Part shown: piece by piece, positions 4,347 to 61,666 of the stretch | How the letters are laid out: every line of letters begins with the position of its first letter | Position numbering within the stretch: position 1 is the stretch's first letter | DNA from: Streptomyces beijiangensis | Lineage (GTDB): Bacteria; Actinomycetota; Actinomycetes; Streptomycetales; Streptomycetaceae | Assembly (NCBI RefSeq): GCF_017315755.1 | Contig: NZ_JAFLRJ010000036.1 | Span: 1-64,000 of the forward strand | Direction: 5' to 3' | Length of the DNA: 64,000 nucleotides | Translations under genes and position numbers: made by a program | The notes under the pieces: generated by a model | What the model saw: the letters and a program-made list of their open reading frames with translations, nothing else | Database searches by the model: none | What the model was told of the DNA's origin: nothing

Positions 4347-4370
4347 GTGTCGCTGTCACCTAAGCGCCGC
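4336..4370. terminator. Hairpin terminator with 14-bp perfect stem
   Basis: GCGGCGCTTAGGTG (4336-4349) pairs perfectly with 4357-4370 across a 7-nt loop. The left arm contains the stop codon of the TrmB/LuxR-like gene. There is no U tract, as is usual for streptomycete terminators. Confidence 0.75.
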
Positions 4371-4502
4371 ATCCGCCCCTTCTTCCCCTGCGGTGACCGC
4401 CGGTAGCGTCCAGGGCACGCAGTGGTGACCCGTACATGCCATGTCTTGCATGGGTGTGTCCGGCGTGCCCCGCGCCATGTCCCCCCGATCGAGGAGGAGC
4501 AC

Positions 4503-41268: not shown

Positions 41269-44200
41269 GACTGCACTCGCTGCACATCAGCGCTTTCGGC
41301 CCCTTCGCCGCGCCCCAGGTCGTCGACTTCGACGCACTGTCCTCCGCCGGACTCTTCCTGCTGCACGGGCCCACCGGCGCGGGCAAGACCTCCGTCCTCG
41401 ACGCCGTCTGCTTCGCGCTGTACGGCGCGGTGCCGGGCGCCAGGCAGAGCCCCGGTGCCACGCTGCGCAGCGACCACGCCGCGGACGCGCAGCTGACCGA
41501 GATCCGCCTCGAACTGACCGTGGCAGGAAGGCGGTTGGAGATCACCCGGCAGCCCGCACAGCCGAGGCCCAAAAAGCGCGGAACCGGATATGTGACGGAG
41601 AAGGCCCAGAGCGGGCTCCGTGAGTACGACCCGCAAGCCGGGGCCTGGAAGGCGCTGAGCCGCTCCCACCAGGAGATCGGCGAGGAGATCAGCCAGCTCG
41701 TGGGGATGAGCAGGGAGCAGTTCTGCCAGGTGGTGCTGTTGCCGCAGGGAGACTTCGCACGCTTCCTGCGTGCTGACGCCGAGGCGCGCGGCAAGCTCCT
41801 CGGGCGGCTCTTCGACACCCGGCGCTTCGCCGCGGTCGAGGAGCGCCTTGCCGAGCTGCGGCGCGCGGCCGAGCAGCAGGTACGCGCCGGTGACGAGCGG
41901 CTCCTGACCTTGGCGCACCGGATGGCCGAGGCCGCGGGCAGGGCGGCGGCGGAGTGGCCGCTGCCCGACGCGCAGCCGGGCGACCCCGGCCTCGCCGAGT
42001 CCGTACTGGAATGGGCCGCGATCGCCCGCAGCGGCGCGCGCGAACGCCTCGACATCGCCTCGGGGGCCGTGCAGGCGGCCGAGAGCAGGCAGGCCGCCGC
42101 CCGGCTCGCGCTGGATGCCGAGCGTGAGCTGGCCAGGCTCCAGCAGCGGTACGCGGACACGCAGAGGCGCGCCGGTGAGCTGGCGGCCCGCCGCCCCGAG
42201 TACGAGCAGGTACGGGCACGCCTGGACCGGGCCAGGAAGGCGGAGCGGGTGGCGCCCGCACTCTCCCTCCGCGAGCAGGCCGAGGGCGCTCACGGCGCGG
42301 CGAGCAACGGCCGCGAAAGATCCCGCGCCCAGCTTCCCTCCGCCCTCCACGACGCCGGTGCGGAACAACTCTCCGCGCTGGGAAGGACGTTGCGGCAGGA
42401 GCTGGGCGGCCTGGAGGCCGCCTGCAGGGACGAAAGGCGCAGCGCGGAGATCACCGCAGACCTGGCGGCGCTGGAGCGCGAGGCGCGCGGCGACGACGAA
42501 CTGATCCAGGAGTCGGCCGGCTGGCTCTCGGGCTGGGACACCGAGCGCAGCCGTCTGCAGGACCGTATCGAAGCCGCGCGGGAAGCCGGGACGCTCGCCG
42601 AACAGCTCGCCGGACAGCTGGAACCGGCCCGCGGCAGGCTGGAGGCGGCGCGCGAGCGCGACCGGCTGGAGAGCGGGGCCGCCACAGCCGAGGACGCGCT
42701 GCGCGCCGCCCGCGAGCGGGCGAGTGCGGCGCACGAGTCCTGGCTCGGCCTCAGGGAGCGCAGACTGCTGGGCATCGCCGCCGAACTGGCGGCCGGTCTG
42801 CGCGACGGCGAACCGTGCACGGTCTGCGGGGCGACCGCGCACCCGTCCCCGGCGCAGGCCGGTGCGGGCCATGTGGACCGGACGGCGGAAGAAGAGGCGT
42901 ACGCCCGCCACACCCGCGCCGAGGAGGCCCGCGCCGAGGAGGAGCGCAGGCTCGCAGGGGTACGGGAAGCCGTGGCCGTGGCCCGCGGCGAGGCGGGCAC
43001 CGCCACCGTCGCCGAACTGGCCGGGCTCACCGGCCGGTTGCAGCAGGAGTACAACGAAGCGCACACCGTCGCGGCAGGGACGCACGCGGCCCGCGAAGCA
43101 CTCGACCGCGCCGAGCGCGAGCACGCGCGACGCGTCGCCGCACAACAGCAGGCCGAACTCCGAGCCTCCGGACGGACCTCACGGCGCGAGACCCTCGAAG
43201 GCGAACGGGGTGCGCTGGAGAAGGACTTGACCCGTGCGCGGGGGGACGCCGGCAGCGTGGCCGAGCACGCCGCCCTCCTGGAGCGCCGGGTACGGCTGCT
43301 CGAAGCGGCGGTCGATGCGGTACGCGCGGTGGAGACGACCGCCCAGCAGCTGAAGGAGGCCGACGACCGCCTCGCCGACGCGGCGTTCCGGGCCGGCTTC
43401 GACACCCCGCAGGCAGCCGCCGCCGAGCTGCTCCCCGAGGACGGGCACCGTCGTCTGCAGCACCAGGCGGACGCCTGGCAGGCCGAGGAGGCGGCGGTCG
43501 CCGACCGGCTCGCCGAAGAGGACGCGGCACGGGCGGCAGAGCTCCCGCAGGCGAACCCCGACACCGCACGGGCCGCCTTCGACCGGGCGGAGCGCAGCGT
43601 GCGCGAGTCGGGGTCGGCCCTGGATGCGGCCCGCGAGCGCGGCAGCGCACTCGCCAGGCTCTCCCGGCAGGCCGCCGAGGAGCTGAGGAGCCTCGGGCCA
43701 CGGCGCGAGGAGTACGACCGGGTGGCCCGGCTGGCGGGTCTCACGGCGGGCACCTCCACGGACAACGAACGCAGGATGCGCCTGGAGTCGTACGTCCTCG
43801 CGGCCCGCCTCGAGCAGGTCGCCGCAGCAGCCACCGTACGGCTGCAGCGCATGTCGTCGGGCCGCTACACCCTGGTGCACTCCGACGCCAGAGCGGGCGG
43901 CCGCAGCCGCTCCGGCCTCGGTCTGCATGTCGTCGACGCCTGGACCGGGCGCGAGCGGGACACCGCGACACTCTCGGGCGGTGAGACGTTCTTCGCCTCG
44001 CTCGCCCTGGCCCTGGGCCTGGCCGACGTGGTCACCGACGAGGCCGGCGGCATCCGTCTCGACACCCTCTTCATCGATGAGGGCTTCGGCAGCCTCGACG
44101 AGCAGACGCTGGACGAGGTCCTTGATGTACTGGACTCGCTGCGCGAGCGGGACCGCAGCGTCGGCATCGTCAGCCATGTCGCTGACCTGCGCCGTCGTAT

Positions 44201-44270
44201 CCCCGCGCAGCTGGAAGTGATCAAGAACCGGGCGGGATCGATCGTGTCCCAGCAGGGAGCCCGCGACTGA
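41265..44270 (+). CDS. sbcC: Exonuclease SbcC with island-supplied C-terminus
   Basis: 1001-residue SMC-like ATPase partner of SbcD. The N-terminal P-loop is HGPTGAGKTSVLDAVCF, long coiled coils flank a zinc hook CTVCG near residue 522, and the C-terminal half-site carries TLSGGETFFASLALALGLAD and Walker B TLFIDEGFGSLDEQT. It starts in the sbcD stop (ATGA). The final 64 codons, from 44079 on, come from the integrated island: the same sequence recurs at 61469 followed by a different ending (AAGLSG). The protein is thus a hybrid but keeps all motifs, so it is likely functional. Confidence 0.95.
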   Translation: MRLHSLHISAFGPFAAPQVVDFDALSSAGLFLLHGPTGAGKTSVLDAVCFALYGAVPGARQSPGATLRSDHAADAQLTEIRLELTVAGRRLEITRQPAQPRPKKRGTGYVTEKAQSGLREYDPQAGAWKALSRSHQEIGEEISQLVGMSREQFCQVVLLPQGDFARFLRADAEARGKLLGRLFDTRRFAAVEERLAELRRAAEQQVRAGDERLLTLAHRMAEAAGRAAAEWPLPDAQPGDPGLAESVLEWAAIARSGARERLDIASGAVQAAESRQAAARLALDAERELARLQQRYADTQRRAGELAARRPEYEQVRARLDRARKAERVAPALSLREQAEGAHGAASNGRERSRAQLPSALHDAGAEQLSALGRTLRQELGGLEAACRDERRSAEITADLAALEREARGDDELIQESAGWLSGWDTERSRLQDRIEAAREAGTLAEQLAGQLEPARGRLEAARERDRLESGAATAEDALRAARERASAAHESWLGLRERRLLGIAAELAAGLRDGEPCTVCGATAHPSPAQAGAGHVDRTAEEEAYARHTRAEEARAEEERRLAGVREAVAVARGEAGTATVAELAGLTGRLQQEYNEAHTVAAGTHAAREALDRAEREHARRVAAQQQAELRASGRTSRRETLEGERGALEKDLTRARGDAGSVAEHAALLERRVRLLEAAVDAVRAVETTAQQLKEADDRLADAAFRAGFDTPQAAAAELLPEDGHRRLQHQADAWQAEEAAVADRLAEEDAARAAELPQANPDTARAAFDRAERSVRESGSALDAARERGSALARLSRQAAEELRSLGPRREEYDRVARLAGLTAGTSTDNERRMRLESYVLAARLEQVAAAATVRLQRMSSGRYTLVHSDARAGGRSRSGLGLHVVDAWTGRERDTATLSGGETFFASLALALGLADVVTDEAGGIRLDTLFIDEGFGSLDEQTLDEVLDVLDSLRERDRSVGIVSHVADLRRRIPAQLEVIKNRAGSIVSQQGARD
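44079..44173 (+). repeat. Left copy of 95-bp direct repeat (att site of sbcC island)
   Basis: Identical base for base to 61469-61563. Weaker similarity extends on both sides (from 44065 to about 44225). To its left is uninterrupted sbcC; to its right is an sbcC end with silent differences from the displaced copy. This is the pattern left by site-specific integration into a gene 3' end. Confidence 0.85.
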
Positions 44271-48287: not shown

Positions 48288-51200
48288 CTAGTCGCCGTCG
48301 GGACCGGTGGTCATGTGAGTGGTCTTATCGTCACAATAGATCACTCGGGTGGGCGTCTCGTTCGTCGACGAGAGCGGTGGAACGGAGATGTTCCAGGGGT
48401 TTCCGCCGTTCCCACGTACCGCAATGTCACACTTTCCGTACGGATTGCCCGCATCGGATGTGATCCCGGGGATATTGGTGAAGTTGGAGAAGCTGCCGCG
48501 CTGTACCGGGCCGCTGGTCGACTTCCCCGTTTGGTCGATCATCGCGCCGTTGTGGTAGAGGTACAGGTCAGGCATGTATCCCTGGTACACGAGCCCGTAG
48601 GCAGGGCTGTTGTCGGCGTCGGGCACTGCCTGGGTGGACTTCACACTGCCATCGGCGCAGAAAGCGACGGACACGTTCTGCCAGATCGGCGGGGCCGCGT
48701 ACAACAGAGAGCCCGAGGCGCTGTTGACGTCGAACTCTCGGAAGAACATGTTATAGAAATCACCTGCAGTGTCGGCGACTTCCTGTGGTGCCTTGCCCGC
48801 GTCGACGGCCTTCTGAAGTTGGTCGACCCAGGCCTTGAAATTCTTGTCCGTGGTCGGGGCGCCGCCGAGCGGACGGTAGCCGTCGACACCGCCTCCGATG
48901 GACTTGGTGTTCAAGCACTGCCCGGAACTGTCGATGGTCGGGGTGCTGTAGTGCGGCAGGTAAGCACGCGCGCGCGTGAAGCCGGTCTGGAGTGGGTTGT
49001 CGACGTGAGTCGCACTGCCGGTGACCGTGTTGGCGTCGAGTTCGTCGAACGAGAGGTCGGGCATGGAGACCCCGGCGCTGCCGTAGTCGGCGACGGTGCC
49101 CTTGACGAACGAGACGACGAACGGGGCGATCTTGGTGTTTCCGACACGCCAGTTGACGTCGTAGTCCTGAGTTCCGGGAATGATCTTCCCGTCGTCTCCG
49201 GCGATGAAGTTGACGTTGATGTGCGTCTTATTCTTGTAGTCGAGATCGGAGGCGAACGCGGTGTCGGGCGCAGTGGAAGCACTGGGAACGGGGTTGTCGA
49301 ACCCCATCCACCGTGTGATCGACTTCGATCCGCTCGTGGCGGTGCCAGCCTCGGTGATCTGCTGCGACCAGGCCTGCATGGCCGCCTCGCTCTGCGCTCC
49401 CACGCACCCGGTGCTGAGCGTACTGCTGCAGGCAGGAAACTCGGTGAGTCCCTTCACCCTCGGCTTGCTGGCGTCGTACCAGGGTGCTCCGCCAGCGGTC
49501 TTGTTGCGGGCCCAGTCGTACAGCGTCTGCCGCGTGCGGATGGGGCTGTTGATGGTGCTGGGCGTGTTGGTGTCGAGGTTCTGATTGGGATCGATCGCTG
49601 ACACGGCATCGAACGTGTGGTGCACCTCATGGCCCGCGAACGGGACGAAGGCGAGTGCGTCGTAGGCAACGGCGCTGTCTCCGGAGGTCGCGTCGTCGGT
49701 GACGTTGCTCAGGGTGACCTTGGCGTTGGCTCCGAGTTGGAAGTATCCGACGGTGACCCAGCCGTTGCTGGCCTTGGTCTGGTCTACGACGCGCTCGTAG
49801 ACCTTGCCGGACTTCGTGGTGACCTCGTAGTGGGCGGACTTGGTGGTGTTGCCCAGGTAGGGGATGTAGGCCTGAACCTTGTAGACGTGGTCGCTCAGCT
49901 TCGAGGACCAGGCGCCGGTGGTGGTCAGCAGGTTGTCCCAGTTATTGGGCTGCCGGCCGTGGGAGAAGTAGTAGTGGCCGCCGAAGCCTCCGCCGATCTG
50001 GTGGAGGTCCTCCTTGGCCTCGTAGTGGTTCTCCTCGTCAGCAGCGAAGGAGAAGCCGAAGTTCCCCCCGCTGCTCCATCCCTTGGTCGAGCACCGGACG
50101 GACGGCACTGAGTCAGGGAGTTCGTCGACGAGAGTGGATCCGCTGGGCAGGGTCGAGGCATCACACGGGCCGGGGTTGGGATTGGCGCTTCCGGGTTCGC
50201 TGCGGACCGTCTTGTACGTCATGTACTCGTTGCCGCATTGGTTGGCGGTGCAGTCCTTCCACTTGGTGTCCTGGTTGTACCAGTGGGGGGTGTAGCAGGC
50301 CACGTCGTGACAGACCGGCGGTGCGAGCGGGTCGCATGAGTTGCTGGTGTCGCAGAACGCGCTCAGCGGAGGCCTGATCGCACTGGTGCGGTCGGTGGCG
50401 ACACTCCACCAGGCGGCGGAGTAGCCATGGGTGTTGCCGCTGTTCTTCACACCGTTGTCGTCGTAGGAGCGTCCGGTGTCGAGGGGGAAGGCACCCCAGC
50501 CCATCACCTTCTCCTCGTACGGCCAGTTCTGCGGCTTGGCCGCGTCGGCGTAGTGGTTGTTGTCGAGGAAGGCGAGGCGGTCGGCCGGGTACTTGGGGTT
50601 GGCCGGGTTGTTGCCCCAGCCGAGGCCCCAGCGGCCGGACGGGTCGCTGCCAGGAAGGTTGAAGCCGGCGTTGTAGTTCCAGACCGCGGCGAACCAGTTC
50701 TCCGGCCGGGACGGATCGTCGTTGTTGACCTTGATCGTGGAACCGGCGGCGTGGAGCTCGTTCCACTTCTTGGCGAGGATCTGCGCCGAGTACGAGATGC
50801 CGGTGGCGTAGTCGAGGGCGACAGCCCGCTGCTGATCCGCGGGCAGGATCTTCTCGTTGGGCTTGGGGTGGCCGGCCTTGCGCATGCCGTCGGTGGCCTG
50901 GCCGATGCCATAGCCGCAGTCGGCCTTGTCCCAGTTGATCTTCCAGATGCGGTTCGGGTCGTAGCCGTCGGTGCCGGCGTAGATGTTGGTGCCGTAGTAG
51001 TTGCCGATGAGCGGATTGCCGTACTCGCCCGGCTCCGCATGTGAGGAGGCCTGCCACAGGTTGGACTCCTGGGCGAGGACTCCGAGCATCACCTGCGCCG
51101 GGATGTTACCGCCGGTGGTCAGGCCGACCTGGGGGAACATTCCCTGGGGCGACCAGGCGGGCAGCCCCGAGTGGCGCCAGTCGGCGGGCCGGCTGGCATT

Positions 51201-52625
51201 GGCGGAGGTCAGCAGTCCCCTGACGGCCATGTCGGCGGCCCATTCAACCTGGTTGGGGGTCGGCTGGTACACCTGAGTGTTCGGGTCGTTGCGCGGAACC
51301 GCGCAGTAGCCGTCCTGGTCGACCGGGTCCGACGACGACTCGCTCGATGCCAGCATGGCGCGGGAAGATTTCTCCGCGGCGCTCTTGCCAGTTGCGCTCG
51401 CACCGCCGACGACGTAGGGGAGGATCGGGGAGGGCTTCACACCGTCCGCCTCATGCGCCGAGGAGGCCTTAGGCGAGACGGCGAAGGACAGGTCCTTGCC
51501 TGTGGCGGTGGCGGTCGCCTTGATGTCGACGGTCTCCGGCGCGGCGGTCTGGGCACGCTGCAGCGGGTTGGCGACCTTGTCGGCGAGGTGACGCGGAGTG
51601 GACCGGGTGATGGCCAGCCCGCCCTTGGTCGAGAGGTCGGCCTGCGCCGGCGCGTCGATCCGGCGCACCGTCTTCGGCAGCGCCCCCGTCACCTTGGCGT
51701 TGCCGGACAGCAGCACCTGACCGTGGGCCCCCTGCGACAGCCCGACGTCGCCCAGCTTGCCGGTGCCGAGGGTGGACACCTTCCTGCCACTGAGGTGCTT
51801 GACCGCGACCGTGGTGGCGGAAGGGTCGATGAAGGTGACGTCACCGCTGCTGTCGGGGCGCAGACGCAGGGCGTTGCCGTGGGTATGAGCCGCCACGGTC
51901 GTGTGCCCCTTGCGGTCCAGGCGGAGCAGTCGCCGCTCGTCGGAGGCGACGATGGTGCTGCCCACCGGCACGGCCGAAGTGGCCTGGCCTTGCAGGGAGT
52001 TGGTGGCGATGACCTTGCCAGTGACGGCGTCAACGGTCTGCAGTTGGGTCTGGTCGCCCTTGGCGGTGCTGGAGGCCTGGGTGATGACCGCCGTCTCGGC
52101 GCTGCCGCATCCGGGGTCGAAGTAGGCCAGGCTGGCATTGACCGCGACCTTGGTGACCGCGCCGGTGTCGAGGTCGACGACGGCGGTGAAGGCTCCCCGG
52201 TCATACAGGTCTGCGTTGTTGGTGAAGGACCGGGGCGCGTACGCGACGACGGCGCGCTTGCCGGAACCCGTAACGCAGGCGTTGCCGACCCACTGGTCGG
52301 CCGAGAGGCCAGGCTCGGCCAGGGTCGCCACGGTCCGCCAGTGGTAGGCGTCCTTCGCGTCGGCGACCAGGATATGGAGGCCGGTGGCGTCACCGGCGGT
52401 GCTCCACGCCCGGTCGCCCGACGCCGTCCCGTCCTTGCCGAGCAGCTCGGTCCGCTTGGCAACGGGTATCCCGGCCGGATCCGGCTTCGCCGCGCTGGTG
52501 TTGGCGGTGGGTGGTTTCGCCGGGGCCGGGGTGCCGGCCCAGGCGGAAGCCTGGACCAAGCCGGTCAGGGTTGCCCCAGCAGCCAGCGCCGCCAGCGGGG
52601 CTCTCGCTCTCTTGCGGAATCTCAA
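48288..52625 (-). CDS. Giant secreted protein with lytic-transglycosylase-like and golvesin/Xly domains
   Basis: 1445-residue exported protein. TTG 52625 has GAGGAG 5 nt away and gives an ideal signal peptide (MRFRKRARAPLAALAAGATL... ASAWA). An upstream ATG at 52670 sits in a hairpin loop and would spoil it. Residues 60-330 look like repeat blades. Near 510-660 AQESNLWQASS and YGIGQATDGM resemble a transglycosylase fold with the catalytic-type Glu. Near 905-1000 VYKVQAYIPYLGNTTKSAHY is a golvesin C-terminal/Xly CBD-like domain. Aromatic, Asn-rich segments suggest cell-wall or glycan binding. It lies 194 bp downstream of the ABC operon, on the same strand. Confidence 0.85.
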   Translation of the reverse strand: MRFRKRARAPLAALAAGATLTGLVQASAWAGTPAPAKPPTANTSAAKPDPAGIPVAKRTELLGKDGTASGDRAWSTAGDATGLHILVADAKDAYHWRTVATLAEPGLSADQWVGNACVTGSGKRAVVAYAPRSFTNNADLYDRGAFTAVVDLDTGAVTKVAVNASLAYFDPGCGSAETAVITQASSTAKGDQTQLQTVDAVTGKVIATNSLQGQATSAVPVGSTIVASDERRLLRLDRKGHTTVAAHTHGNALRLRPDSSGDVTFIDPSATTVAVKHLSGRKVSTLGTGKLGDVGLSQGAHGQVLLSGNAKVTGALPKTVRRIDAPAQADLSTKGGLAITRSTPRHLADKVANPLQRAQTAAPETVDIKATATATGKDLSFAVSPKASSAHEADGVKPSPILPYVVGGASATGKSAAEKSSRAMLASSESSSDPVDQDGYCAVPRNDPNTQVYQPTPNQVEWAADMAVRGLLTSANASRPADWRHSGLPAWSPQGMFPQVGLTTGGNIPAQVMLGVLAQESNLWQASSHAEPGEYGNPLIGNYYGTNIYAGTDGYDPNRIWKINWDKADCGYGIGQATDGMRKAGHPKPNEKILPADQQRAVALDYATGISYSAQILAKKWNELHAAGSTIKVNNDDPSRPENWFAAVWNYNAGFNLPGSDPSGRWGLGWGNNPANPKYPADRLAFLDNNHYADAAKPQNWPYEEKVMGWGAFPLDTGRSYDDNGVKNSGNTHGYSAAWWSVATDRTSAIRPPLSAFCDTSNSCDPLAPPVCHDVACYTPHWYNQDTKWKDCTANQCGNEYMTYKTVRSEPGSANPNPGPCDASTLPSGSTLVDELPDSVPSVRCSTKGWSSGGNFGFSFAADEENHYEAKEDLHQIGGGFGGHYYFSHGRQPNNWDNLLTTTGAWSSKLSDHVYKVQAYIPYLGNTTKSAHYEVTTKSGKVYERVVDQTKASNGWVTVGYFQLGANAKVTLSNVTDDATSGDSAVAYDALAFVPFAGHEVHHTFDAVSAIDPNQNLDTNTPSTINSPIRTRQTLYDWARNKTAGGAPWYDASKPRVKGLTEFPACSSTLSTGCVGAQSEAAMQAWSQQITEAGTATSGSKSITRWMGFDNPVPSASTAPDTAFASDLDYKNKTHINVNFIAGDDGKIIPGTQDYDVNWRVGNTKIAPFVVSFVKGTVADYGSAGVSMPDLSFDELDANTVTGSATHVDNPLQTGFTRARAYLPHYSTPTIDSSGQCLNTKSIGGGVDGYRPLGGAPTTDKNFKAWVDQLQKAVDAGKAPQEVADTAGDFYNMFFREFDVNSASGSLLYAAPPIWQNVSVAFCADGSVKSTQAVPDADNSPAYGLVYQGYMPDLYLYHNGAMIDQTGKSTSGPVQRGSFSNFTNIPGITSDAGNPYGKCDIAVRGNGGNPWNISVPPLSSTNETPTRVIYCDDKTTHMTTGPDGD

Positions 52626-52651
52626 CGAATCTCCTCTGGGAAGATCCCGTG

Positions 52652-52691
52652 CCATATCGGCGCGGGACATACCGCTCCCGCGCCGATATGG
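52652..52691. promoter_or_regulatory. 16-bp perfect inverted repeat just upstream of the golvesin gene
   Basis: Arms 52652-52667 and 52676-52691 with an 8-nt loop, 27 bp before the TTG start. It could be a terminator for the operon upstream, an operator, or a 5'-UTR stabiliser. Confidence 0.55.
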
Positions 52692-52818
52692 CGCGGGAGC
52701 GGAAGTTCAAATGAATGCGGTTGACCGTGGACGAGCGGCTAGCCAGCGTCCGGGCAGACGGGCCGTGACTTGAACTGCGCTGGACGTGTCGCGAGCGGGA
52801 ATCGTCAGCCCGTCTAGT

Positions 52819-54075
52819 TCAGCGGCGGAGCGCCTCAGCCGGTGTGATCCGCGAGGCTCTCCATGCCGGATACAGGCCCGCCAGCAGCCCGGTTGCCAGG
52901 CCAATCGCTGGCGCTACGGCGAGGGTCATCGGATCGACGACGGGCGTCCACTCGCGGACTGCCGAGACACAGACCACGGTTGCGGTGCCGATCGAGGTAC
53001 CCATCAGGCCACCGATGAGTCCCAACGCTGCGGACTCGGTCAGGAACTGGAGAGTAATGTGGCGGCCGCGTGCGCCGAGTGCTCGCCGTAGACCGATCTC
53101 TCCGGTGCGCTCCATGACGGCGACGAGGGTGGTGTTGGCGATACCGACGGCGCCGATCACCAGGCAGACCGCCGCGAGGATGAGAAACAGCTGACTGAGG
53201 TCACTGCCTACCGCCGTTCGCAGCGACTTGGGGTCGGGTGGCGGGACGGCGTTGAAGTACTCGGGATGTTCTGGGCGCAGGGCAACCGCAGCCTCGTGGG
53301 CAACCTGTGATGCGGCACCAAGTTGGGTGGAGATCAGCATCTGTGCACGTGAGTCCGTCGGGGGCCCCCAGATGCGCTCTGCTGTGGCACGGGGAACCAC
53401 GATCGACATCAGCAACTCCGGTTTGCGGTCCACGTCCTTGACGATGCCGATCACAGTGAATGGAACATCGCCGATAAAGATGGCCGGGTTGGTACGCAGA
53501 GTGGTGATGCCCAGTCGGGCGGCGGTGGCCGCGCCCAGGACAGCGACTTGCTGGTGGTGCTGCTCGTGAAATTCGCTGAAGGAACGGCCTTGAGCGAACC
53601 GGGAGTTCGCTGCAGCCAGCACCCCGGGGGAGGCAGCGATCACCTGAGTCTGAGCATCGGCCCCATTGGTAATCCCGAGCGGAGCAGACCGGACTGGTTC
53701 CTCGGGTCCGAGCCGGACCCTCCAATAGACGCCGGCAGCATCGACTCCGTTGAGATGGCCAATCCGTGCATCCGCATCCTTTGGGAAGGCCAGGTGCACC
53801 CGCGCGGAATCCTGTCCGCCGGTGTCCTGCACATTGACCTCGGTCGCGGTGAGCTTGTTGAAACGGGTGTCGATCTGGGAGGCCGCGGTCCCGGTGAGCC
53901 CAAGGACCGCGATGAACGCTCCTACGCCCAGCACGGTACCCAGCGCGGTCAGGATGGATCGGGCCGGGCGCTGGAGGATTCCCGCTATCGCCTCAGCGAG
54001 CAGGTCCCTCAGCGCAAGACGGGAGCGGCTAATCGCGTAGGTCTCGGCGTGGCGCCGACGGTGTGCTCTTTTCAC
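52819..54075 (-). CDS. MacB/FtsX-type ABC transporter permease
   Basis: 418 residues: one N-terminal membrane segment (ILTALGTVLGVGAFIAVLGL), a large extracytoplasmic MacB-PCD-like domain (about 60-280), then three C-terminal membrane segments with the family motif GEIGLRRALGARGRHITLQF. The end is RASRITPAEALRR, typical of FtsX permeases. GTG 54075 overlaps the ATPase stop by 4 nt. It likely acts with the adjacent ATPase and adaptor as a mechanotransmission-type exporter or extractor. Confidence 0.9.
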   Translation of the reverse strand: MKRAHRRRHAETYAISRSRLALRDLLAEAIAGILQRPARSILTALGTVLGVGAFIAVLGLTGTAASQIDTRFNKLTATEVNVQDTGGQDSARVHLAFPKDADARIGHLNGVDAAGVYWRVRLGPEEPVRSAPLGITNGADAQTQVIAASPGVLAAANSRFAQGRSFSEFHEQHHQQVAVLGAATAARLGITTLRTNPAIFIGDVPFTVIGIVKDVDRKPELLMSIVVPRATAERIWGPPTDSRAQMLISTQLGAASQVAHEAAVALRPEHPEYFNAVPPPDPKSLRTAVGSDLSQLFLILAAVCLVIGAVGIANTTLVAVMERTGEIGLRRALGARGRHITLQFLTESAALGLIGGLMGTSIGTATVVCVSAVREWTPVVDPMTLAVAPAIGLATGLLAGLYPAWRASRITPAEALRR

Positions 54076-54785
54076 GCGATCACCTGATGAGGGATCTGCT
54101 CCGTCAGCAGTCCGTCGTGGATGGTCACAGTGCGCTGCCCCTGTGCCGCGACGTGGGCGTCGTGAGTGATGACAACGATGGTCATGCCGTCCTGGTGGAG
54201 GCCGTGAAGGAGGTCCAGCACCGAAGAGGCCGTCCGTGAGTCGAGATTGCCGGTCGGTTCGTCGCACAGCAGGAGCGAAGGATCGGCGACCAGTGCCCGC
54301 GCGATCGCTACGCGTTGGCGCTCACCGCCGGAGAGTTGAGTCGGTAGCGAATGAAGACGGTGTGCAAGACCAACCCTCCGCAGCACAGTCTCCGCCCGGA
54401 CACGTCGTTCACGACGGGGCAGTCGCTGGTAAAGCATGGCGAGCTCGACGTTTTCAAGGGCGCTGCGATGCGTCAGAAGATGAAACGACTGAAAGACGAA
54501 GCCGATCCGTTCACTGCGAAGGGCGGCACGGTTCGCCTCACTCACGGCACCGGTATCGATGCCGTCCAAGAGATACGTTCCATGTGTCGGCGCATCGAGG
54601 AGGCCGACAATGTTCAGGAGTGTCGATTTCCCGGATCCGGACGGCCCTACCACGGTGACGAACTCGCCTTGGCCGATCCGTAGGTCACACGGCTGGAGCG
54701 CCGCGACGGTGGGAGGTCCGGGGTAGGTGAGGCCGACCGCGTTGAAGTCGACGACAGGTTCTCCGACCTGGAATGCCCTGGTCAT
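54072..54785 (-). CDS. MacB/LolD-type ABC transporter ATPase
   Basis: 237 residues: Walker A VGPSGSGKST, Q-loop FVFQSFHLL, signature LSGGERQR, Walker B LLLCDEPTGNLD, and the H-loop His in ITHD. The closest class is the LolD/MacB ATPases that partner with FtsX-like permeases. It overlaps neighbours on both sides by 4 nt within a four-gene operon. Confidence 0.94.
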   Translation of the reverse strand: MTRAFQVGEPVVDFNAVGLTYPGPPTVAALQPCDLRIGQGEFVTVVGPSGSGKSTLLNIVGLLDAPTHGTYLLDGIDTGAVSEANRAALRSERIGFVFQSFHLLTHRSALENVELAMLYQRLPRRERRVRAETVLRRVGLAHRLHSLPTQLSGGERQRVAIARALVADPSLLLCDEPTGNLDSRTASSVLDLLHGLHQDGMTIVVITHDAHVAAQGQRTVTIHDGLLTEQIPHQVIA

Positions 54786-56065
54786 GACTGCCCAGCGGTG
54801 ACGGGTGCTTGGACGCCCACCACGACCTGGTCGCCCTGGGCGATGTGATCCGAGCCTTCGGGGGTGATCTGCACGTAACCGTCTCCGGTCATCCCGACCC
54901 GAACAGCAACGCGGCGCTCCTGATTGTCCGCTCGTACCGTCACGGTCGTCAGTCCGTCAGCGCCGGCTGAAATCGCCGAGGTGGGTACAGCCAGTACTTT
55001 GTCCTGCGACGATGCGGCGACGATGGTCAGACGTACATCTGCACCGTTGAAGTCTGCAGAGAGCGCCTTGGACGGCTTGATCCGCACGGCATAGGTTTCG
55101 CCGCTCTGCTCAGAGTCCCCTTCGTGAGCCTTGGTAGGGGACTTGGCGACCGAGATGACCGTTCCTGTGGCCTGCTTTCCCGTCACCTCGGACAGGACTT
55201 GCACACTCTGCCCGGCACGGATCAAGTCTTTCTCATATGACGCGACGGAACCGTCGATCATGAGGGTGCCCGACGTGACCGACAGCAGGGTTCCATTCGC
55301 GTCGCCTCCCACCTTGGCCCCCACTGTGTCGACGCGCGCCAAGCTTGAGCGTACGAACGTCACCTCCGACATGGGCACGCCAGACCCCTGCTTGGCTGTT
55401 CTCTGTGCTGCGTCGTCTGTGGTTTGCGGCTTCTGCGATACCTCTGATGTGGCGGGGGCATAGCCGATTGCCCGGTAGTAGCGGGTCACCGCGTGTTCGG
55501 TCCCCGGGCCGAACACGCCCACGGTGTCCCCACTCGAGGCGTATCCGATGCGGGAGAGTGCACGCTGTAGTTGCGTGACGTCCTCCCCGCTCATGCCGGG
55601 CATCAGATCGCGGTAGGCCGGAAGATCGCCCTGCAGGATGAACATCGGGCGCCCCGAGACTTCCAACAGCACCTGCCCGGGGCTGAGAGTCCCCCCCGGG
55701 GCGATCTTCACTTTGGTGACGACGGACCGGCCCACGTCCTTGGCCGATCCCGTGCTGGCGATGTCAGTGCGCTGCGAGGCCGTCACAGTGCCGCGGGTCA
55801 CCACAGACTGTGCAAGCACCTTGCGTACCACCGGTGCTGTCAACACATCGGGCTGTGGTGCCGCAGAATCCGCAGCAGCCTGTGCCGGCGACTTGATGAG
55901 CATCGCAGCACCAGCACCAGCACCCGTACACAGCAGGCATCCGACTATCACCGCCAGTAGGGCACGTCGTCGTCGGACGAGTCCGCGTGCTCGAGTCGGT
56001 TCACAGGCCGACGCCGCGATCGAGGAATCCGTTTCGTTCCTGGTGTCGACGTCGTTCCGTGTCAC
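54782..56065 (-). CDS. Membrane-fusion/adaptor-like protein with peptidoglycan-binding domain
   Basis: 427 residues. Membrane segment LLAVIVGCLLCTGAGAGAAM near 36-56. It is followed by a HlyD-like barrel interrupted by a peptidoglycan-binding domain (about 148-205, MSGEDVTQLQRALSRIGYAS), then barrel strands with AVPTSAISAGADGLTTVTVR. This layout is found in Gram-positive adaptors of MacAB-like transporters. GTG 56065 overlaps the lipoprotein stop by 4 nt. Confidence 0.88.
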   Translation of the reverse strand: MTRNDVDTRNETDSSIAASACEPTRARGLVRRRRALLAVIVGCLLCTGAGAGAAMLIKSPAQAAADSAAPQPDVLTAPVVRKVLAQSVVTRGTVTASQRTDIASTGSAKDVGRSVVTKVKIAPGGTLSPGQVLLEVSGRPMFILQGDLPAYRDLMPGMSGEDVTQLQRALSRIGYASSGDTVGVFGPGTEHAVTRYYRAIGYAPATSEVSQKPQTTDDAAQRTAKQGSGVPMSEVTFVRSSLARVDTVGAKVGGDANGTLLSVTSGTLMIDGSVASYEKDLIRAGQSVQVLSEVTGKQATGTVISVAKSPTKAHEGDSEQSGETYAVRIKPSKALSADFNGADVRLTIVAASSQDKVLAVPTSAISAGADGLTTVTVRADNQERRVAVRVGMTGDGYVQITPEGSDHIAQGDQVVVGVQAPVTAGQS

Positions 56066-56985
56066 CGTGTCCCCGCAATAACACTGGCTGCCTTCTTCAC
56101 TGCGGCGTCGAGGGCCTTGGACTCGTGGTCCAATAGTTCGGCCTTATTCTCAATTGCCTTGTTCTGGAGGGTTGTCTCGGCGTCGAACCAGATCTTCGCA
56201 ACATTTGTCTTGTTGCGACAGTCGATGTCAGTGGTAGCTGTTGCGATCTCCAGAGCTGTCACGTCCGGCGAACCGAAACGCGGGTCATCGCTGGCGTCAA
56301 GAGGTGCGGCGTAGTTATACCCACTCGCCTTCATGCACGCAGACCATGCCCCGAAGGCTTTCACCACATGAGCATCCGCCTTAGATTTCACGAATGCTTC
56401 TGCGCTTATTTCTTGGGCTGTGTTCGTTTGGACGGCCTGAGCGCCTATCCGCCTATCCGCCTGCCCCATACAGCCGCCTTCGGGAACCTTCTTCCCGTTT
56501 ACGGCCTTGACGCCACTGCCGTCCAGTGTTTGGGAATCCGCGCCCCCCGTCAAGTTGTCAACGGCCCCTGCATTGATTGCATTGTCGTAAGCGGCTTGGT
56601 CATTGGCATCCGGCTTATACCCCCGAACCTTCGCCAAAGCCAGATCGTGGATTCCGTACCGCCAGTCGACGAGAGTCTTCCCGCCGATCTTGGGGAGGTC
56701 TGGGGCCGGAGCCCAGGTGAAACCAAAACCCTTCATGCAATCGCCGATGAGCTGCTTCCTGGCCTGAGAAATCTGCGCCTTCGCGCTATCGGAAGGAAGG
56801 TAGCCTTGGATGGGAAGGGTCCAAGTGGACGGGTCTTTCTCATCGAACGGAACCGCCGGGGAGGGCAATATTCTTGTCGGCTTAGTGCTGGATTCTGTGT
56901 CCGACCCCGCGCATCCTGTCACGACCGCAAGGGTTGCCACAGAAAGCGAAACCGCAAGCATGTGATTCTTCAAACGATAGTTCAT
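56062..56985 (-). CDS. Secreted lipoprotein, first gene of the ABC operon
   Basis: 307 residues with a lipoprotein signal: basic start, hydrophobic core SLSVATLAVV and lipobox VTGC (Cys25 lipidated). The mature part is mixed alpha/beta with two Cys pairs and no recognised domain. ATG 56985 has GGAAG upstream; a TTG one codon before is possible. It is the lead gene of four coupled genes, and probably the substrate-binding or accessory subunit of the transporter. Base composition is lower in GC than the flanking chromosome. Confidence 0.8.
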   Translation of the reverse strand: MNYRLKNHMLAVSLSVATLAVVTGCAGSDTESSTKPTRILPSPAVPFDEKDPSTWTLPIQGYLPSDSAKAQISQARKQLIGDCMKGFGFTWAPAPDLPKIGGKTLVDWRYGIHDLALAKVRGYKPDANDQAAYDNAINAGAVDNLTGGADSQTLDGSGVKAVNGKKVPEGGCMGQADRRIGAQAVQTNTAQEISAEAFVKSKADAHVVKAFGAWSACMKASGYNYAAPLDASDDPRFGSPDVTALEIATATTDIDCRNKTNVAKIWFDAETTLQNKAIENKAELLDHESKALDAAVKKAASVIAGTR

Positions 56986-57282
56986 CAATTCTTCCAGCTA
57001 TCTGTCTGGGTGCATTCCTTTCAAGTTGAAGGATTGGCACACTCGGATGGGCTTCGTGATTTGGTTATGGGTAGATGAAATGAGGATGAGGTGGGCCCGG
57101 CCTTGTTGATTGGTGTCGTGGAACGAAACAACCGTGCCCACCCAACCCTCAGAGGTGCCCCTTCTTGCGAAACGAAGATTCCGTCACCAATCCGGGATCT
57201 TCTCGCTAACACGCAACTACGTCCAGACGAGGGATCGCCACGTTTCCCTGAGGCTGGTCAGCGGTGCGCGACTTGTGTCGCT
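56986..57282. other. Gap between the ABC operon and the I36-like gene
   Basis: 297 bp of lower-GC DNA carrying the promoter region of the lipoprotein operon. Frames on either strand are short and without a recognised domain; a plus-strand frame (57110-57379) overlaps the next gene and has no RBS. Confidence 0.4.
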
Positions 57283-57750
57283 TTACAGCGACGACCAGTT
57301 GAAGGAAGCATTTTGGTTGTACGCCTGCGAGAGATTCCGTGAGCTGTTAGGGGTGGCCCAGTCGGAGCTTCCCTTATAGCCCGAGTTGTAATACGTGACT
57401 GCGTAGTACGTGGAGTGCTTGTTCCTCACCGAGGCTGCATTGTTCTTGATGCCCTGATTGTTTCCGGAGCCGCCGTGGCAGAAGAGCAATGGCTGAGTGC
57501 CGGCCTGAGGAGAGCCCCCGACCCGCTCGTCTGCGAAGTCGTATACGGGATATCCGACGTTACGGTAGGCGCCACCGTAGTTCGAATTGAAATAGATGGC
57601 GTACTTGAACACCGAAGCAGACTGCGACTTCATACATGCATCGGGGCTCTCCTGGTTCTCTTCCCCTGTGGAAGCGTGCGCGGGAGTAATGATCGACATC
57701 CCGAGGCCAATCGCTGTGGCCGTAACGGCCAGAGTCTTCTTCAGGTTCAT
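57283..57750 (-). CDS. Secreted peptidase-inhibitor I36-like protein
   Basis: 155 residues. ATG 57750 follows GAGGAG at 5 nt and begins a signal peptide (MNLKKTLAVTATAIGLGM... HASTG). The mature part is a beta/gamma-crystallin-like module: SNYGGAYRNVGYPVYDF, GIKNNAASVRNKHSTYYAVT, YYNSGYKGSSDW and QNASFNW, the pattern of the I36 (SMI-like) inhibitor family. One Cys pair is likely (CMKSQ, LFCHG). It precedes the lipoprotein-ABC operon on the same strand and may be its substrate (inference). Confidence 0.75.
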   Translation of the reverse strand: MNLKKTLAVTATAIGLGMSIITPAHASTGEENQESPDACMKSQSASVFKYAIYFNSNYGGAYRNVGYPVYDFADERVGGSPQAGTQPLLFCHGGSGNNQGIKNNAASVRNKHSTYYAVTYYNSGYKGSSDWATPNSSRNLSQAYNQNASFNWSSL

Positions 57751-58753
57751 GATTCTCCTCATTGCAAAGAATTGAGGGGAATAGTGGACAGGCCGCTGCC
57801 GTACGCACGAAACGCACAGACGGCACGGATGTCCTGCTGATTACTGCAGCTTGTGATCAGGGTGCAGGAGCGACGCTGAAAGCGGACCACAATTCAGTGA
57901 CCCAGCCCTGCTGTACTCGCTATCTCCAGATCCCGAAGCAGACAGCTCGACACGCTGTACAGCATTCCCCTCCCGGTTGCGCGTCGATTCATCTGTCGCG
58001 AGACGGAGCTGCGGCCTGTGTGCCACATGAGCACCCCCTCGACGACTCGGTCATTAGATCATCACAATTTCTCCATGAAATGGACATTTGGGCTTGTACT
58101 CGACTGTCACAAATTCATCTCGCCCCGTTTCGCGATGCCGCATGCTCGGTGCATGCATGAAGGCGTCACATTGGCGTCCGCGAATGCCAACTAGCCTCCA
58201 TTACCCATTAGTTGGAGAGGTGCTGGATTCCGCTAAGGCCGTACCGCGTCGACCCCTCCGCCTATGTGTTTCTTGGCCAAGAATTTACAGTCCTTGGGTG
58301 GAACGCGGGGTGGTGCTTTACGTAAGGGATGGGCTGCGGTGCATGGGTGGCCCGCAATTCCCCTGTGCAGGGTGACTGATCCGTCAGTCAACTGCGGTTG
58401 CCTCAGGCTGCATTCGACCACGCGCTCCGAAATCAGGACGGCGTGCAGGTCAAGGCTTTTGCAAAGTCTTTTGATCTTGGAACGTCGCAGGTCGGTCGAT
58501 CTTGAGTAGATCGAGCGGGCGGGTGAAGAGTTTGTAGGAATCTATCGGAGGACGGCGAAGACGTTGGGGTATCAGGGGTCCGCGTGCCGTCGAAGTTTGG
58601 TCGCCGTCTGGTTCGTGCCATCGGACTGTGGCTGCCCCGACTGGGAACTCCCAATGACCGTCACCCGATTGCTGCTTGTGCCGTGTCGTCGAGGCAGCCG
58701 AGGCAGTTGCTGACCACGTCCACGCTCACTTCGACGTACCAGGAGCCCTCCGC
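57751..58753. other. Low-GC stretch with no recognised gene
   Basis: About 1 kb holding the promoter region of the I36-like gene and that of the PGRS-like gene. It is clearly less GC-rich than the chromosome. Open frames are short and without RBS. Parts may be eroded mobile DNA, but no terminal repeats were seen. Confidence 0.4.
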
Positions 58754-59461
58754 GTGCCTCTCACCTCGCTCATCCCTGCCCCAGCTCTGCGCACTTTGCT
58801 TGCCGCAGTGATGCTCACCGCGGCACCGGTCGCGGTCCTGGCCGTGGGCGCCACCCCGTCGTTCGCTGACTGCTCCGGAACCCAAGGTGCCGACGGTGCC
58901 AACGGCACACCGTCCCACCCGAACGGGAGCCCCGGCGCCGACGGCGGCAACGGTGCGCCCGGTTGCACCGGCGGGGCCGGAGGAAACGGCGGCCAGGGCT
59001 ACGGCGGCGGAACAGGCGGGGCCGGAGGAGACGGCGGGATCGGCGGCAGCGGAGCCACCGGCCTAGGCGGAGCCGGCGGAAACGGCGGCACCTCAGGGAC
59101 CATGGGTGGGGCAGGCGGCGTGGGCGGCAATGGCGGAGCTGGCGGCGTAGGGAGTCCCGGCGGCAGCAGTGGTGCGGCAGGCGGGACCGGCGGGCGCGGC
59201 GGCGCAGCCATCGGCGCCGACACCGGTGGAGTCGGCGGCAACGGCGGGGCGGGCGGCAACGCCAGCGGCAACGACAGCACTGGTGGAGCGGGCGGGCGCG
59301 GCGGCGCCGGTGGCGACGGCCCCCAAGGCACAGGTGGTGCGGGCGGAGGCGGCGGCAACGGCGGGGCGGCCACCGGCAGCGGCACGATCGGCCCGTGTGG
59401 GCCCGGCGGTGACAGTGGAGTCGGCCTGGCCAACGGCGCCCCCGGCACCGACAACTGCTGA
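58754..59461 (+). CDS. Secreted PGRS-like glycine-rich repeat protein
   Basis: 235 residues. GTG 58754 has AGGAG 8 nt away and a signal peptide (LRTLLAAVMLTAAPVAVLAV... PSFADC). Then come about 175 residues of GGAGGNGG-type triplets, as in the PGRS part of mycobacterial PE-PGRS proteins but without a PE domain. Cys residues cap each end (ADCSGTQ, APGCTGG, and GPCGPGG and DNC at the C-terminus). PGRS modules form glycine-rich polyproline-II-like helices. It is likely a cell-surface or matrix protein; the function is unknown. Confidence 0.75.
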   Translation: MPLTSLIPAPALRTLLAAVMLTAAPVAVLAVGATPSFADCSGTQGADGANGTPSHPNGSPGADGGNGAPGCTGGAGGNGGQGYGGGTGGAGGDGGIGGSGATGLGGAGGNGGTSGTMGGAGGVGGNGGAGGVGSPGGSSGAAGGTGGRGGAAIGADTGGVGGNGGAGGNASGNDSTGGAGGRGGAGGDGPQGTGGAGGGGGNGGAATGSGTIGPCGPGGDSGVGLANGAPGTDNC

Positions 59462-59537
59462 CACCACCACTCCCAGCGCATCGGGTCGCGGCCGGATCGT
59501 CCCACCGCAGGTTAAGCGCCCTGGCAGTAAGCCCTGC

Positions 59538-59768
59538 TCAACGTTCGGTGGCATCCACGCAAGGTTCGTTGGCACAGGACAGTCGGCCCAGCGCCGCGAA
59601 TGCCTGACGAGCCTTGTGTCGTGCGATCTCCTTAACCGAAACCGTCTGGATCTCATCCAGGTCCAGAGGCACCTGCTCAATCTCGATGCCCCAGGGCATC
59701 AAGTGCTCTTGCGCGGCGGCGAACTTGCCGAGATTGCCCGTACAGAACGCAATCTTCGAACAAGACAT
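59538..59768 (-). pseudogene. Truncated ITPase/XTP diphosphatase (Ham1/RdgB-like)
   Basis: ATG 59768 with an excellent GAGGAGG 9 nt upstream. The first about 61 residues (KIAFCTGNLGKFAAAQEHLM, VPLDLDEIQTVSVKEIARHK, ARQAF) match the N-terminus of non-canonical purine NTP pyrophosphatases, including TGN and the LDLDEIQ motif. Similarity ends at FAALGR, and a short unrelated tail stops at 59538. The catalytic rest is missing, so the product is unlikely to be active. Confidence 0.75.
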
Positions 59769-59870: not shown

Positions 59871-61307
59871 GAGACTGTCCTGAACTTCGTGTATGCCCCG
59901 GTGTGACCCGTCTGGCATGAGACGTGGTCTCTGCCGGGAAGGATCACCGTGGGTATCAAGGACGAACGCCCGCGCGAGAGCGCGAACATCGTAAACACGG
60001 GGGCCGAGTTGGCACGAGCATCCGAGCGCGACCGGGAGCTGGCGGGCGAGTTGGTGGCCCGAGCCCGGCGTGAGGGACTGAATCTGGTCGGGGACAACGG
60101 GCTGTTCAAGGGACTGGTGAAGCTGGTCCTGGAGGGCGCGTTGGAAGCGGAGATGACTGATCACCTCGGCTACGAGAAGGGCGATCCGGCCGGCGCGGGG
60201 ACAGGCAACTCCCGGAACGGAACGTCCCGCAAGCGGGTGCTGACCGATGTCGGCGCGGTCGATATCGAGGTCCCCCGCGACCGGCGGGGCAGCTTCGACC
60301 CGCAGATTGTGCCCAAGCACGCACGGCGGGCCGAGGGCTTCGACGAGGCCATCGTCTCGCTGTACGCCAAGGGCCTGACCACTGGAGAGATCTAGGCCCA
60401 TCTCGCGGAGATCTACGACGTCGATGTCTCGCGGGACTTGATCTCGCGGGCCACCGACAAGGTCTCCGAGGAACTCGACGCCTGGCGCAACCGCCCGCTG
60501 GACCGCGTCTACGCCGTGATCATGATCGATGCGATCGTCCTGAAAATCCGCGACGGAGCGGTCGCCAACCGGCCTGTCTATATCGCGGTGGGGATCAATC
60601 TCGAGGGTGAGCGTGACGTGCTGGGCATGTGGGTAGGTTCCGGCGGCGAGGGTGCCAAGACCTGGATGACGTGGCTGGCGGAACTCAGGAACCGCGGCGT
60701 CGAGGACGTACTGATTGCCTGCTGTGACGGGCTGAAGGGCCTGCCGGACTCCATCCAGAACATCTGGCCGCTCGTCGACGTCCACCTCTGCGTGGTTCAC
60801 ATGGTCCGCGCAAGCCTCAAATACGCCTTGACGAAGCACTGGTCGCAGATCGCCAAGGAACTCCGCCAGGTCTACACCGCCGCCAACGCGGACGCCGCCG
60901 AGGCCCGGTTCGCGGAGTTCGAGGAGCTCTGGGGCGCCCGCTACCCGGCCCTGATCGGGGTCTGGCGGCGCAGCTGGGAGCACTTCGTGATGTTCCTGAG
61001 GTTCCCACCGGAGATCCGCAAGATCGTCTACACCACCAACATCATCGAGTCCCTCAACTCCCGCTTCCGCCAGGCCACTCGCCGCGGGCACTTCCCCAGC
61101 GAGGAGGCCGCCCTCAAGGTCCTCTACCTCGTGATCCGCGACCGACAGCCCAACCGCCGCAACCCGACGGGGCGCACCTACAACTGGAAGGAAGCCATCA
61201 ACGTCCTCGCCGGCTTCTACGGCGACCGCGTCATTGACAACCAGTAACACCGAACTAAACCCAAATAACGTCATCACCAGGGCTTACACGGAAAACAAGA
61301 CACTCTC
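59871..61307 (+). mobile_element. IS256-family insertion sequence
   Basis: About 1437 bp with imperfect 33-bp terminal inverted repeats at 59871-59903 and 61275-61307 (GAGACTGTCCTGAAC... and GAGAGTGTCTTGTTT... on the other strand). The 8-bp flanks do not match, so the target duplication is lost or the ends have been rearranged. Confidence 0.8.
59949..61247 (+). pseudogene. IS256-type transposase broken by one amber codon
   Basis: GTG 59949 opens a mutator-type transposase (MTDHLGYEKGDPAG, RNGTSRKRVLTDVGAVDIEV). TAG occurs at 60393-60395, where the family has Gln in GEIQAHL, a CAG to TAG change. The same frame then continues 284 codons with the DDE core (VIMIDAIVLKIRDG, CCDGLKGLPDSIQ) and FVMFLRFPPEIRKIVYTTNI. 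One base change would restore a 432-residue enzyme. Confidence 0.9.
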
Positions 61308-61454: not shown

Positions 61455-61666
61455 CCCTCTTCATCGACGAGGGCTTCGGCAGCCTCGACGAGCAGACGCT
61501 GGACGAGGTCCTTGATGTACTGGACTCGCTGCGCGAGCGGGACCGCAGCGTCGGCATCGTCAGTCACGTCGCCGATCTGCGCCGTCGTATCCCGGCCCAG
61601 CTGGAGATCGTCAAGGAGCGCGACGGATCGGCGGTGCGGCTGCGCGCCGCGGGGCTCAGCGGCTGA
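61455..61666 (+). pseudogene. sbcC: Displaced native 3' end of sbcC
   Basis: Encodes LFIDEGFGSLDEQTLDEVLD through HVADLRRRIPAQLEIVKERD, ending AAGLSG-stop: the Walker B and D-loop end of SbcC with no start or upstream part. It matches sbcC from 44065 on. It is the original chromosomal gene end pushed away by the island; without the insertion SbcC would have been 1003 residues. It overlaps the stop of the convergent AsnC gene by 11 bp, the native arrangement. Confidence 0.9.
61469..61563 (+). repeat. Right copy of 95-bp direct repeat (att site)
   Basis: Identical to 44079-44173. The base just left of the repeat (61468, C against T at 44078) and the base just right (61564, T against C at 44174) differ, so the strand exchange must lie within these 95 bp. 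Confidence 0.85.

Follow-up and report, generated by a model that had tools for sequence, protein, structure and literature searches.

The closest described counterparts of the gene reported here are found among mycobacterial PE_PGRS proteins and among springtail antifreeze proteins (AFPs). For PGRS domains a PPII/PGII fold has been proposed in two reports (PMC10216338, PMC13243192), one of which also describes the loss of PPII structure in simulation when a PGRS segment is scrambled (PMC13243192). The springtail and snow flea AFPs are described as having a signal peptide, G-X-X/GGX repeats, an antiparallel PPII bundle and disulfides (PMC10235112, PMC8409303), and PPII bundles as a class are said there to serve unrelated functions (PMC8409303).

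The gene examined here lies on contig NZ_JAFLRJ010000036.1 of the Streptomyces beijiangensis assembly GCF_017315755.1, of which the first 64,000 nucleotides (the window) were analysed; all positions given below refer to this stretch. Our favoured reading, which we hold with moderate confidence, is that its product is a helical bundle of the polyglycine-II (PPII) kind, which is clasped by disulfides outside the cell and serves there as a binding or matrix element.

The gene and its predicted product

The Gly-rich coding sequence occupies positions 58754-59461 of the plus strand (235 aa), from a GTG start at 58754 to a stop codon that ends at 59461. An in-frame TTG at 58676 was printed in the ORF list as an alternative start; the GTG is favoured because an AGGAG that reads as ribosome-binding-like (58741..58745, plus strand) lies 8 nt upstream of it. 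The closest relative, L020 (also recorded as L038) on contig 6 (46,997 bases) of the genome G506, is identical to the window protein at 152 of 234 aligned residues and keeps the four Cys. The differences between the two genes number 55, 49 and 101 at codon positions 1, 2 and 3, with dN 0.27 and dS 0.70 by the Nei-Gojobori method (dN/dS ~0.38). Since the frame, on whose conservation in relatives the first-pass annotation had staked its reading, is conserved in this sole close relative found, and since change falls mostly at third codon positions, it is by sequence comparison a real gene under purifying selection.

The long frames seen on the opposite strand and in the other plus-strand phases probably arise from GGN codons. 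Scoring of frames by GC3 minus GC2 was set aside for this gene; it picks other frames inside Gly-rich genes, where it misleads because GG codons raise position 2. A promoter and terminator consensus scan of 58300-59700 returned nothing, 0 of 29 upstream regions matched BldN-, WhiG- or sigma-70-like promoter patterns, and neither an Rfam match at 56-62 kb nor a tRNA in the 64-kb window was found.

The predicted protein begins with a signal peptide of 38 aa (58754..58867, plus strand), for which the cleavage site PSFA|DC was read by eye and across which L020 aligns. The mature part of 197 residues starts with DCSGTQGADGANG... directly after PSFA. It comprises an N-terminal cap (58868..58966) with Cys40 (58871-58873) and Cys71 (58964-58966), a GGX-repeat body (58967..59395) and a C-terminal cap (59396..59458) with Cys215 and the last residue, Cys235, all on the plus strand. 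Segments of the body run for ~3-5 triplets and are separated by short polar loops (SGATGL, AIGADT, ASGNDST and GPQGT among them); in our reading the whole mature protein would hold ~11-12 putative PGII helices or segments. No cell-wall anchor was seen by eye.

Glycine accounts for 96 of the 197 mature residues (49%), followed by 24 Ala, 14 Thr, 12 Ser and 12 Asn, with 4 Cys, 9 Pro and 11 large hydrophobics. The description of PGRS-like GGX repeats behind a plain signal peptide is borne out by the spacing of the glycines: the mature part contains 73 GxxG pairs, against 45.9 +/- 3.5 and a maximum of 58 in 5000 composition shuffles, and 33 GG-nonG triplets, and the longest run of Gly in a single phase extends over 27 triplets (mean 6.6, maximum 16 in shuffles).

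Glycine at every third residue is also a mark of collagen-like repeats, and a phmmer search of PDB sequences gave the lowest E-value to the chain of a collagen-like fibril (8zxl_X, 4.1e-7), followed by snow flea AFP (2pne, 0.013) and a collagen IX chain (0.059). That the window protein is a collagen-like or RTX calcium-binding repeat protein is nevertheless extremely improbable, considering that the repeats are dominated by GGX and poor in Pro, that no stretch of the 8zxl_X match passed alone and that a pattern search returned no GGxGxDxUx nonapeptide of the RTX kind.

Island setting and relatives

The gene is situated in a 17.4-kb stretch, mostly of lower GC, between two copies of a 176-nt sequence. 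The left copy (44065..44240) is the 3' part of an intact gene at 41265-44270, which from its sequence we take to be sbcC; the right copy (61455..61630) is a stranded sbcC 3' end, identical at 160 of 176 bases (91%). In 10 of 40 sampled relatives (e.g. G006, G020, G005) the sbcC end and the sequence that follows, up to ~62.7 kb, match as one piece; among the others, the match was incomplete in a number of genomes, and a few (G007, G012) had the two parts at separate places. Because the sbcC 3' end is duplicated and the order is uninterrupted in these 10 relatives, the stretch is well supported as an island, in agreement with the first-pass annotation, which had placed the gene on one.

Besides the Gly-rich gene the island contains a DDE transposase region, a Golvesin_C protein, an ABC exporter with adaptor, a 159-aa protein and a Mutator-family transposase. 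The 1460-aa Golvesin_C protein, the exporter (MacB/FtsX, ABC and PG-binding adaptor) and a 308-aa lipoprotein-like protein are encoded on the minus strand at 48288-56988. The 159-aa protein (57283-57762, minus strand), which is divergent from the Gly-rich gene, looks secreted and has a sub-threshold match to peptidase inhibitor I36. Just upstream of the Gly-rich gene, a short segment at 58440-58570 matches six plasmid records, in three of which it carries the annotation ISAs1 transposase; judged from these matches the segment is probably an IS remnant. The frame of the Mutator-family transposase (59949-61247) has one in-frame stop.

The window protein matched 0 families of Pfam and NCBIfam at E<=10, a search in which the HMMER filters drop most matches above ~0.1; none of 13 members of the alignment A3 matched Pfam, and L020, one type-B and one type-A protein (types described below) gave no NCBIfam match at E 0.01. 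PE_PGRS membership was ruled out, as there is no PE domain by Pfam or NCBIfam and no GRPLI string or near-pattern. Titles and abstract openings, mostly from outside the subscription journals, yielded no report of secreted PGRS-like Streptomyces proteins. The window protein points to a new family, for which neither the Pfam nor the NCBIfam copy searched has a matching model, in a fold class that is already known.

All counts of relatives given here are lower bounds, with 5-14 candidates scored per genome in the large samples. The window type was found in at least 2 of the 394 genomes sampled from the family, Streptomycetaceae: its own and G506. The window genome had no match except the window gene itself (one copy), and in the phylum sample its own genome alone matched (1 of 396, a lower bound with 7 candidates scored per genome). 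Scans of genome contigs with the window protein and then with the alignment A2 returned no relative, nor did tblastn with the window protein in plasmids and phages; the weakness of searches with the window protein alone is likely due to low-complexity filtering.

Two further types were recognised in searches that used alignments as queries. Type A (~200 aa), with a signal peptide, a GGX body and a C-terminal Cys pair (SPVCPGKPGGNG...TTLPC in most members), was present in at least 14 of 394 sampled family genomes and five genera, at 18 loci that include two identical ones (G255) and one cut by a contig end (G282); G046 of the genus sample also carries it. Type B (~308 aa) has a signal peptide, a GGX body and four Cys, and its N-cap resembles the one in the window protein; the order sample yielded it in at least 6 of 391 genomes and the genus sample, which overlaps with it, in at least 5 of 392. 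The N-cap common to the window protein, L020 and type B follows the motif C-x(1-2)-GT-x-G-x2-GA-x-G-x3-HP-x-G-x-PG-x2-GG-x(5,7)-C-x-GG. At five loci a type-A gene lies next to a type-B gene, on the same strand in four (L010, L011, L012, L030) and convergent in L017. Type-B genes lie near chromosome ends in G170 (at 92, 116 and 7347 kb of a 7520-kb contig) and in G1069 (at 10 kb), and away from them in G109 and G1035. One type-A gene is found at 137.6 kb of a linear plasmid of Streptomyces sp. NBC_01471 (NZ_CP109451.1, 554,737 bases), where the annotation lists the product, WP_331760148.1, as a 'hypothetical protein'.

An A/T-rich box (GCCAAAATTTG ... CATTTGATCA-like) precedes many of the 17 aligned type-A starts (L003, L005-L017, L024-L026) by ~90-150 bases and may be a promoter or regulator site that they share; by eye the box is absent upstream of the window gene and L020.

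Several candidates were dropped as relatives: G004 (L004), which has a GAT collagen-like repeat; G221 and G469 (L021, L022), with other repeats; G308 (L023), where the Gly-rich filter gave no frame; L056-L059 (E 5e-5 to 7.5e-4), in which no Gly-rich frame was found; and the viral locus L079, a collagen-like protein. A looser PGRS-like likeness, for which no homology with the window family is claimed, was seen in consecutive secreted Gly-rich proteins with more hydrophobic loops on megaplasmids of Streptomyces NBC_01136 and NBC_01450 (L082 at 3834-5802, and L083), one of them having four close pairs of Cys (8 residues), and in another secreted Gly-rich protein on a Methylobacterium plasmid. The view that such repeats are chiefly mycobacterial is therefore not supported: secreted Gly-rich proteins of type A or the window type occur in the Streptomycetaceae genomes counted above, with looser ones on these plasmids, and the repeat type is not limited to PE-bearing mycobacterial proteins. 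The first-pass annotation had proposed a search for PGRS-like proteins that carry a signal peptide and lack a PE domain, and type A, type B and L020 are what such a search found in Streptomycetaceae.

A single close relative was found, which we count against the favoured reading, for the gene could be uncommon, or cargo that is readily lost. A selfish or neutral passenger among IS elements, without current role in the strain, would fit a single-copy gene surrounded by IS remnants, and two type-B frames depart from the Gly-rich family pattern, one after ~115 residues (L033, contig C20 of G426) and the other near the C-terminus (L053, contig C1 of G082). We regard neutral cargo as quite unlikely, however, given that the window gene is intact, has a good start site and has diverged from L020 with the low dN/dS reported above. 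A functional extracellular bundle remains the reading we prefer.

In some relatives the Gly-rich gene has a secreted-looking neighbour with a weak match to the right-handed beta-helix model PF13229 (E 1.2e-4; 22.2 bits against a cut-off of 25.9). The two genes are 43-946 bp apart in G506, G023, G046 and G031, the beta-helix gene of G031 being a fragment. Among 14 Gly-rich-bearing genomes searched, 5 contained the beta-helix gene, at 8 loci, of which 4 adjoin a Gly-rich gene, a biased estimate given that 4 of the 14 genomes entered the search on account of a pairing noticed beforehand. By the Gly-rich filter, no Gly-rich gene was present in the 20-kb surroundings of the other four beta-helix loci, and at E<=1e-5 nothing in the window genome matched the beta-helix protein.

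Cysteine pairs and predicted fold

Numbered from the mature N-terminus, the Cys residues stand at positions 2, 33, 177 and 197 in the window protein, at 2, 33, 177 and 203 in L020, and at 1, 35, 235 and 267 or 270 in two type-B proteins; all four are present in 9 of 9 type-B proteins of the alignment A3. The type-A member P0002 has only the C-terminal pair (137, 169). The repeats had been described as capped by Cys at both ends: Cys does occur near each end, though as two pairs and not as one residue per end. The two C-terminal Cys of type A would bond to each other, since a type-A monomer holds just that pair, and the existence of proteins with the C-terminal pair only argues for two local clasps, not end-to-end closure, in the window protein. 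By this analogy its disulfides are most likely Cys40-Cys71 and Cys215-Cys235. In snow flea AFP the disulfide pairing is Cys1-Cys28.

The fold was predicted by AF2 from a 13-row alignment (mean pLDDT 54.5, pTM 0.45). Block means of pLDDT were 64-77 over residues 41-100, with 72-77 over 41-80; most residues after 136 were below 50, and 83 of the last 100 residues fell in segments below 50. A 2-row alignment of the two closest sequences gave a pLDDT of 41.6, low over residues 29-235. Foldseek returned four PDB matches at E<=10, all of them springtail or snow flea AFPs (best E 3.8e-3, none <0.001; TM-scores 0.12-0.45). VIA-align, applied only to Foldseek's four chains, so that folds missed by Foldseek would stay hidden, placed residues 39-156 of the model (block pLDDT 45-77) on 7jjv_B with Z 16.4, 1.8 A over 107 aligned residues and 49% identity, and superposed 71 residues on 2pne with Z 9.9 and 1.1 A. 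Snow flea AFP may have been in the AF2 training set, and the AFP match may be partly memory.

A disordered, elastic and flexible matrix filler in the manner of glycine-rich silk or plant cell-wall proteins, its chains cross-linked by Cys, would account for a composition of half Gly and for the low AF2 confidence over the C-terminal half and, in the 2-row run, over residues 29-235. We think this unlikely: the Gly register of three residues with short breaks, the similar internal spacing of the Cys pairs in three types and the match of the model to solved PPII bundles all speak for an ordered protein, and scrambling a PGRS segment abolishes PPII in simulation, so that residue order matters, as reported (PMC13243192).

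In a direct alignment of the window protein with snow flea AFP, 48 of 79 positions were identical (13 of 44 without Gly-Gly columns), and the first mature Cys and the PGC motif lined up. For the whole sequence this score was reached by 1 of 2000 shuffles with Gly fixed (4 of 2000 in an earlier run), by 20 of 2000 with Gly and Cys fixed and by 154 of 2000 with Gly, Cys and Pro fixed; for mature residues 1-90 the corresponding counts were 1, 11 and 72 of 2000. Gly-fixed shuffles reached the snow flea AFP score in 127 of 2000 cases for L020 and in 320 of 2000 for the N-terminus of type B. Judged from these shuffles, the likeness to snow flea AFP comes mainly from the placement of Gly, Cys and Pro. 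Descent from a springtail AFP was not accepted, seeing that 154 of 2000 shuffles score as high once these three residues are fixed.

The same comparison bears on the suggestion that the window protein binds ice as a bacterial counterpart of the springtail proteins. Its nearest solved structures by fold are springtail AFPs, the first Cys and the PGC motif are in register, and few shuffles of residues 1-90 equal the score with Gly, or Gly and Cys, fixed. With Pro also fixed many more do so. Moreover, Asp and Arg are among the outward residues in several segments, so that an ice-binding face made up of small residues alone is not obvious, and PPII bundles are described as having unrelated functions (PMC8409303). 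Ice binding is accordingly a very unlikely role. We consider instead that the window protein probably belongs to the springtail AFP fold class and arrived at it independently, an assignment that the model would support for residues 39-156 and that is extrapolated to the rest.

Proposed role and comparison with known systems

Under the favoured reading of a clasped extracellular bundle, the protein would be exported via the Sec route and its signal peptide removed before Asp39/Cys40. Outside the cell two local disulfides would clasp the ends of the bundle, Cys40-Cys71 in the N-cap and Cys215-Cys235 in the C-cap. The bundle itself is envisaged as flat, with two layers of antiparallel PPII helices in which every third residue would be an inward Gly and the other side chains would point outward. 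Such a bundle would amount to a rigid plate that presents polar loops and two outward faces. Its most likely use to the mycelium is in binding or as part of the matrix outside the cells, and certain relatives perhaps combine it with the secreted beta-helix protein encoded next door. We infer the extracellular location and the function as a surface, matrix or binding plate; the surface or matrix role put forward in the first-pass annotation is plausible.

A wider and decidedly tentative proposal, which we think doubtful, is that Streptomycetaceae possess an unrecognised kit of Sec-secreted, disulfide-clasped PGII plates of three types, which islands, plasmids and chromosome arms would disseminate and which would assemble outside the mycelium, certain strains adding a beta-helix partner that is also secreted. 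If this were true, PGRS-like domains would be a general actinobacterial extracellular material, and mycobacterial PE_PGRS one specialised branch of it or a parallel invention. PGRS domains are difficult to study in mycobacteria, and a small, Sec-secreted, probably disulfide-clasped version from soil would be handy for questions of structure and binding.

In comparison with known systems, the window protein shares with mycobacterial PE_PGRS the GGX (GGAGGNGG-type) repeats, the proposed fold (PGII sandwich) and export. It differs in having a Sec-type signal peptide where the PE domain stands, PE_PGRS being exported by Type VII (ESX) secretion, in having Cys pairs, and in its few large hydrophobics, so that there is no obvious hydrophobic sail foot. 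With the springtail and snow flea AFPs (2pne, 3bog, 7jjv) it has in common a signal peptide, G-X-X/GGX repeats in short looped segments, a predicted bundle and probable disulfides, whereas it is bacterial, resembles them in sequence mostly through Gly, Cys and Pro placement and finds no support for ice binding. Types A and B differ from it in length (~200 and 308 aa) and in cap details. Obg, gp38 of phage S16 and acetophenone carboxylase contain, by published description (PMC13243192, PMC8409303), Gly-rich PPII bundles of the same fold class; these bundles are domains of larger proteins, unlike the window protein.
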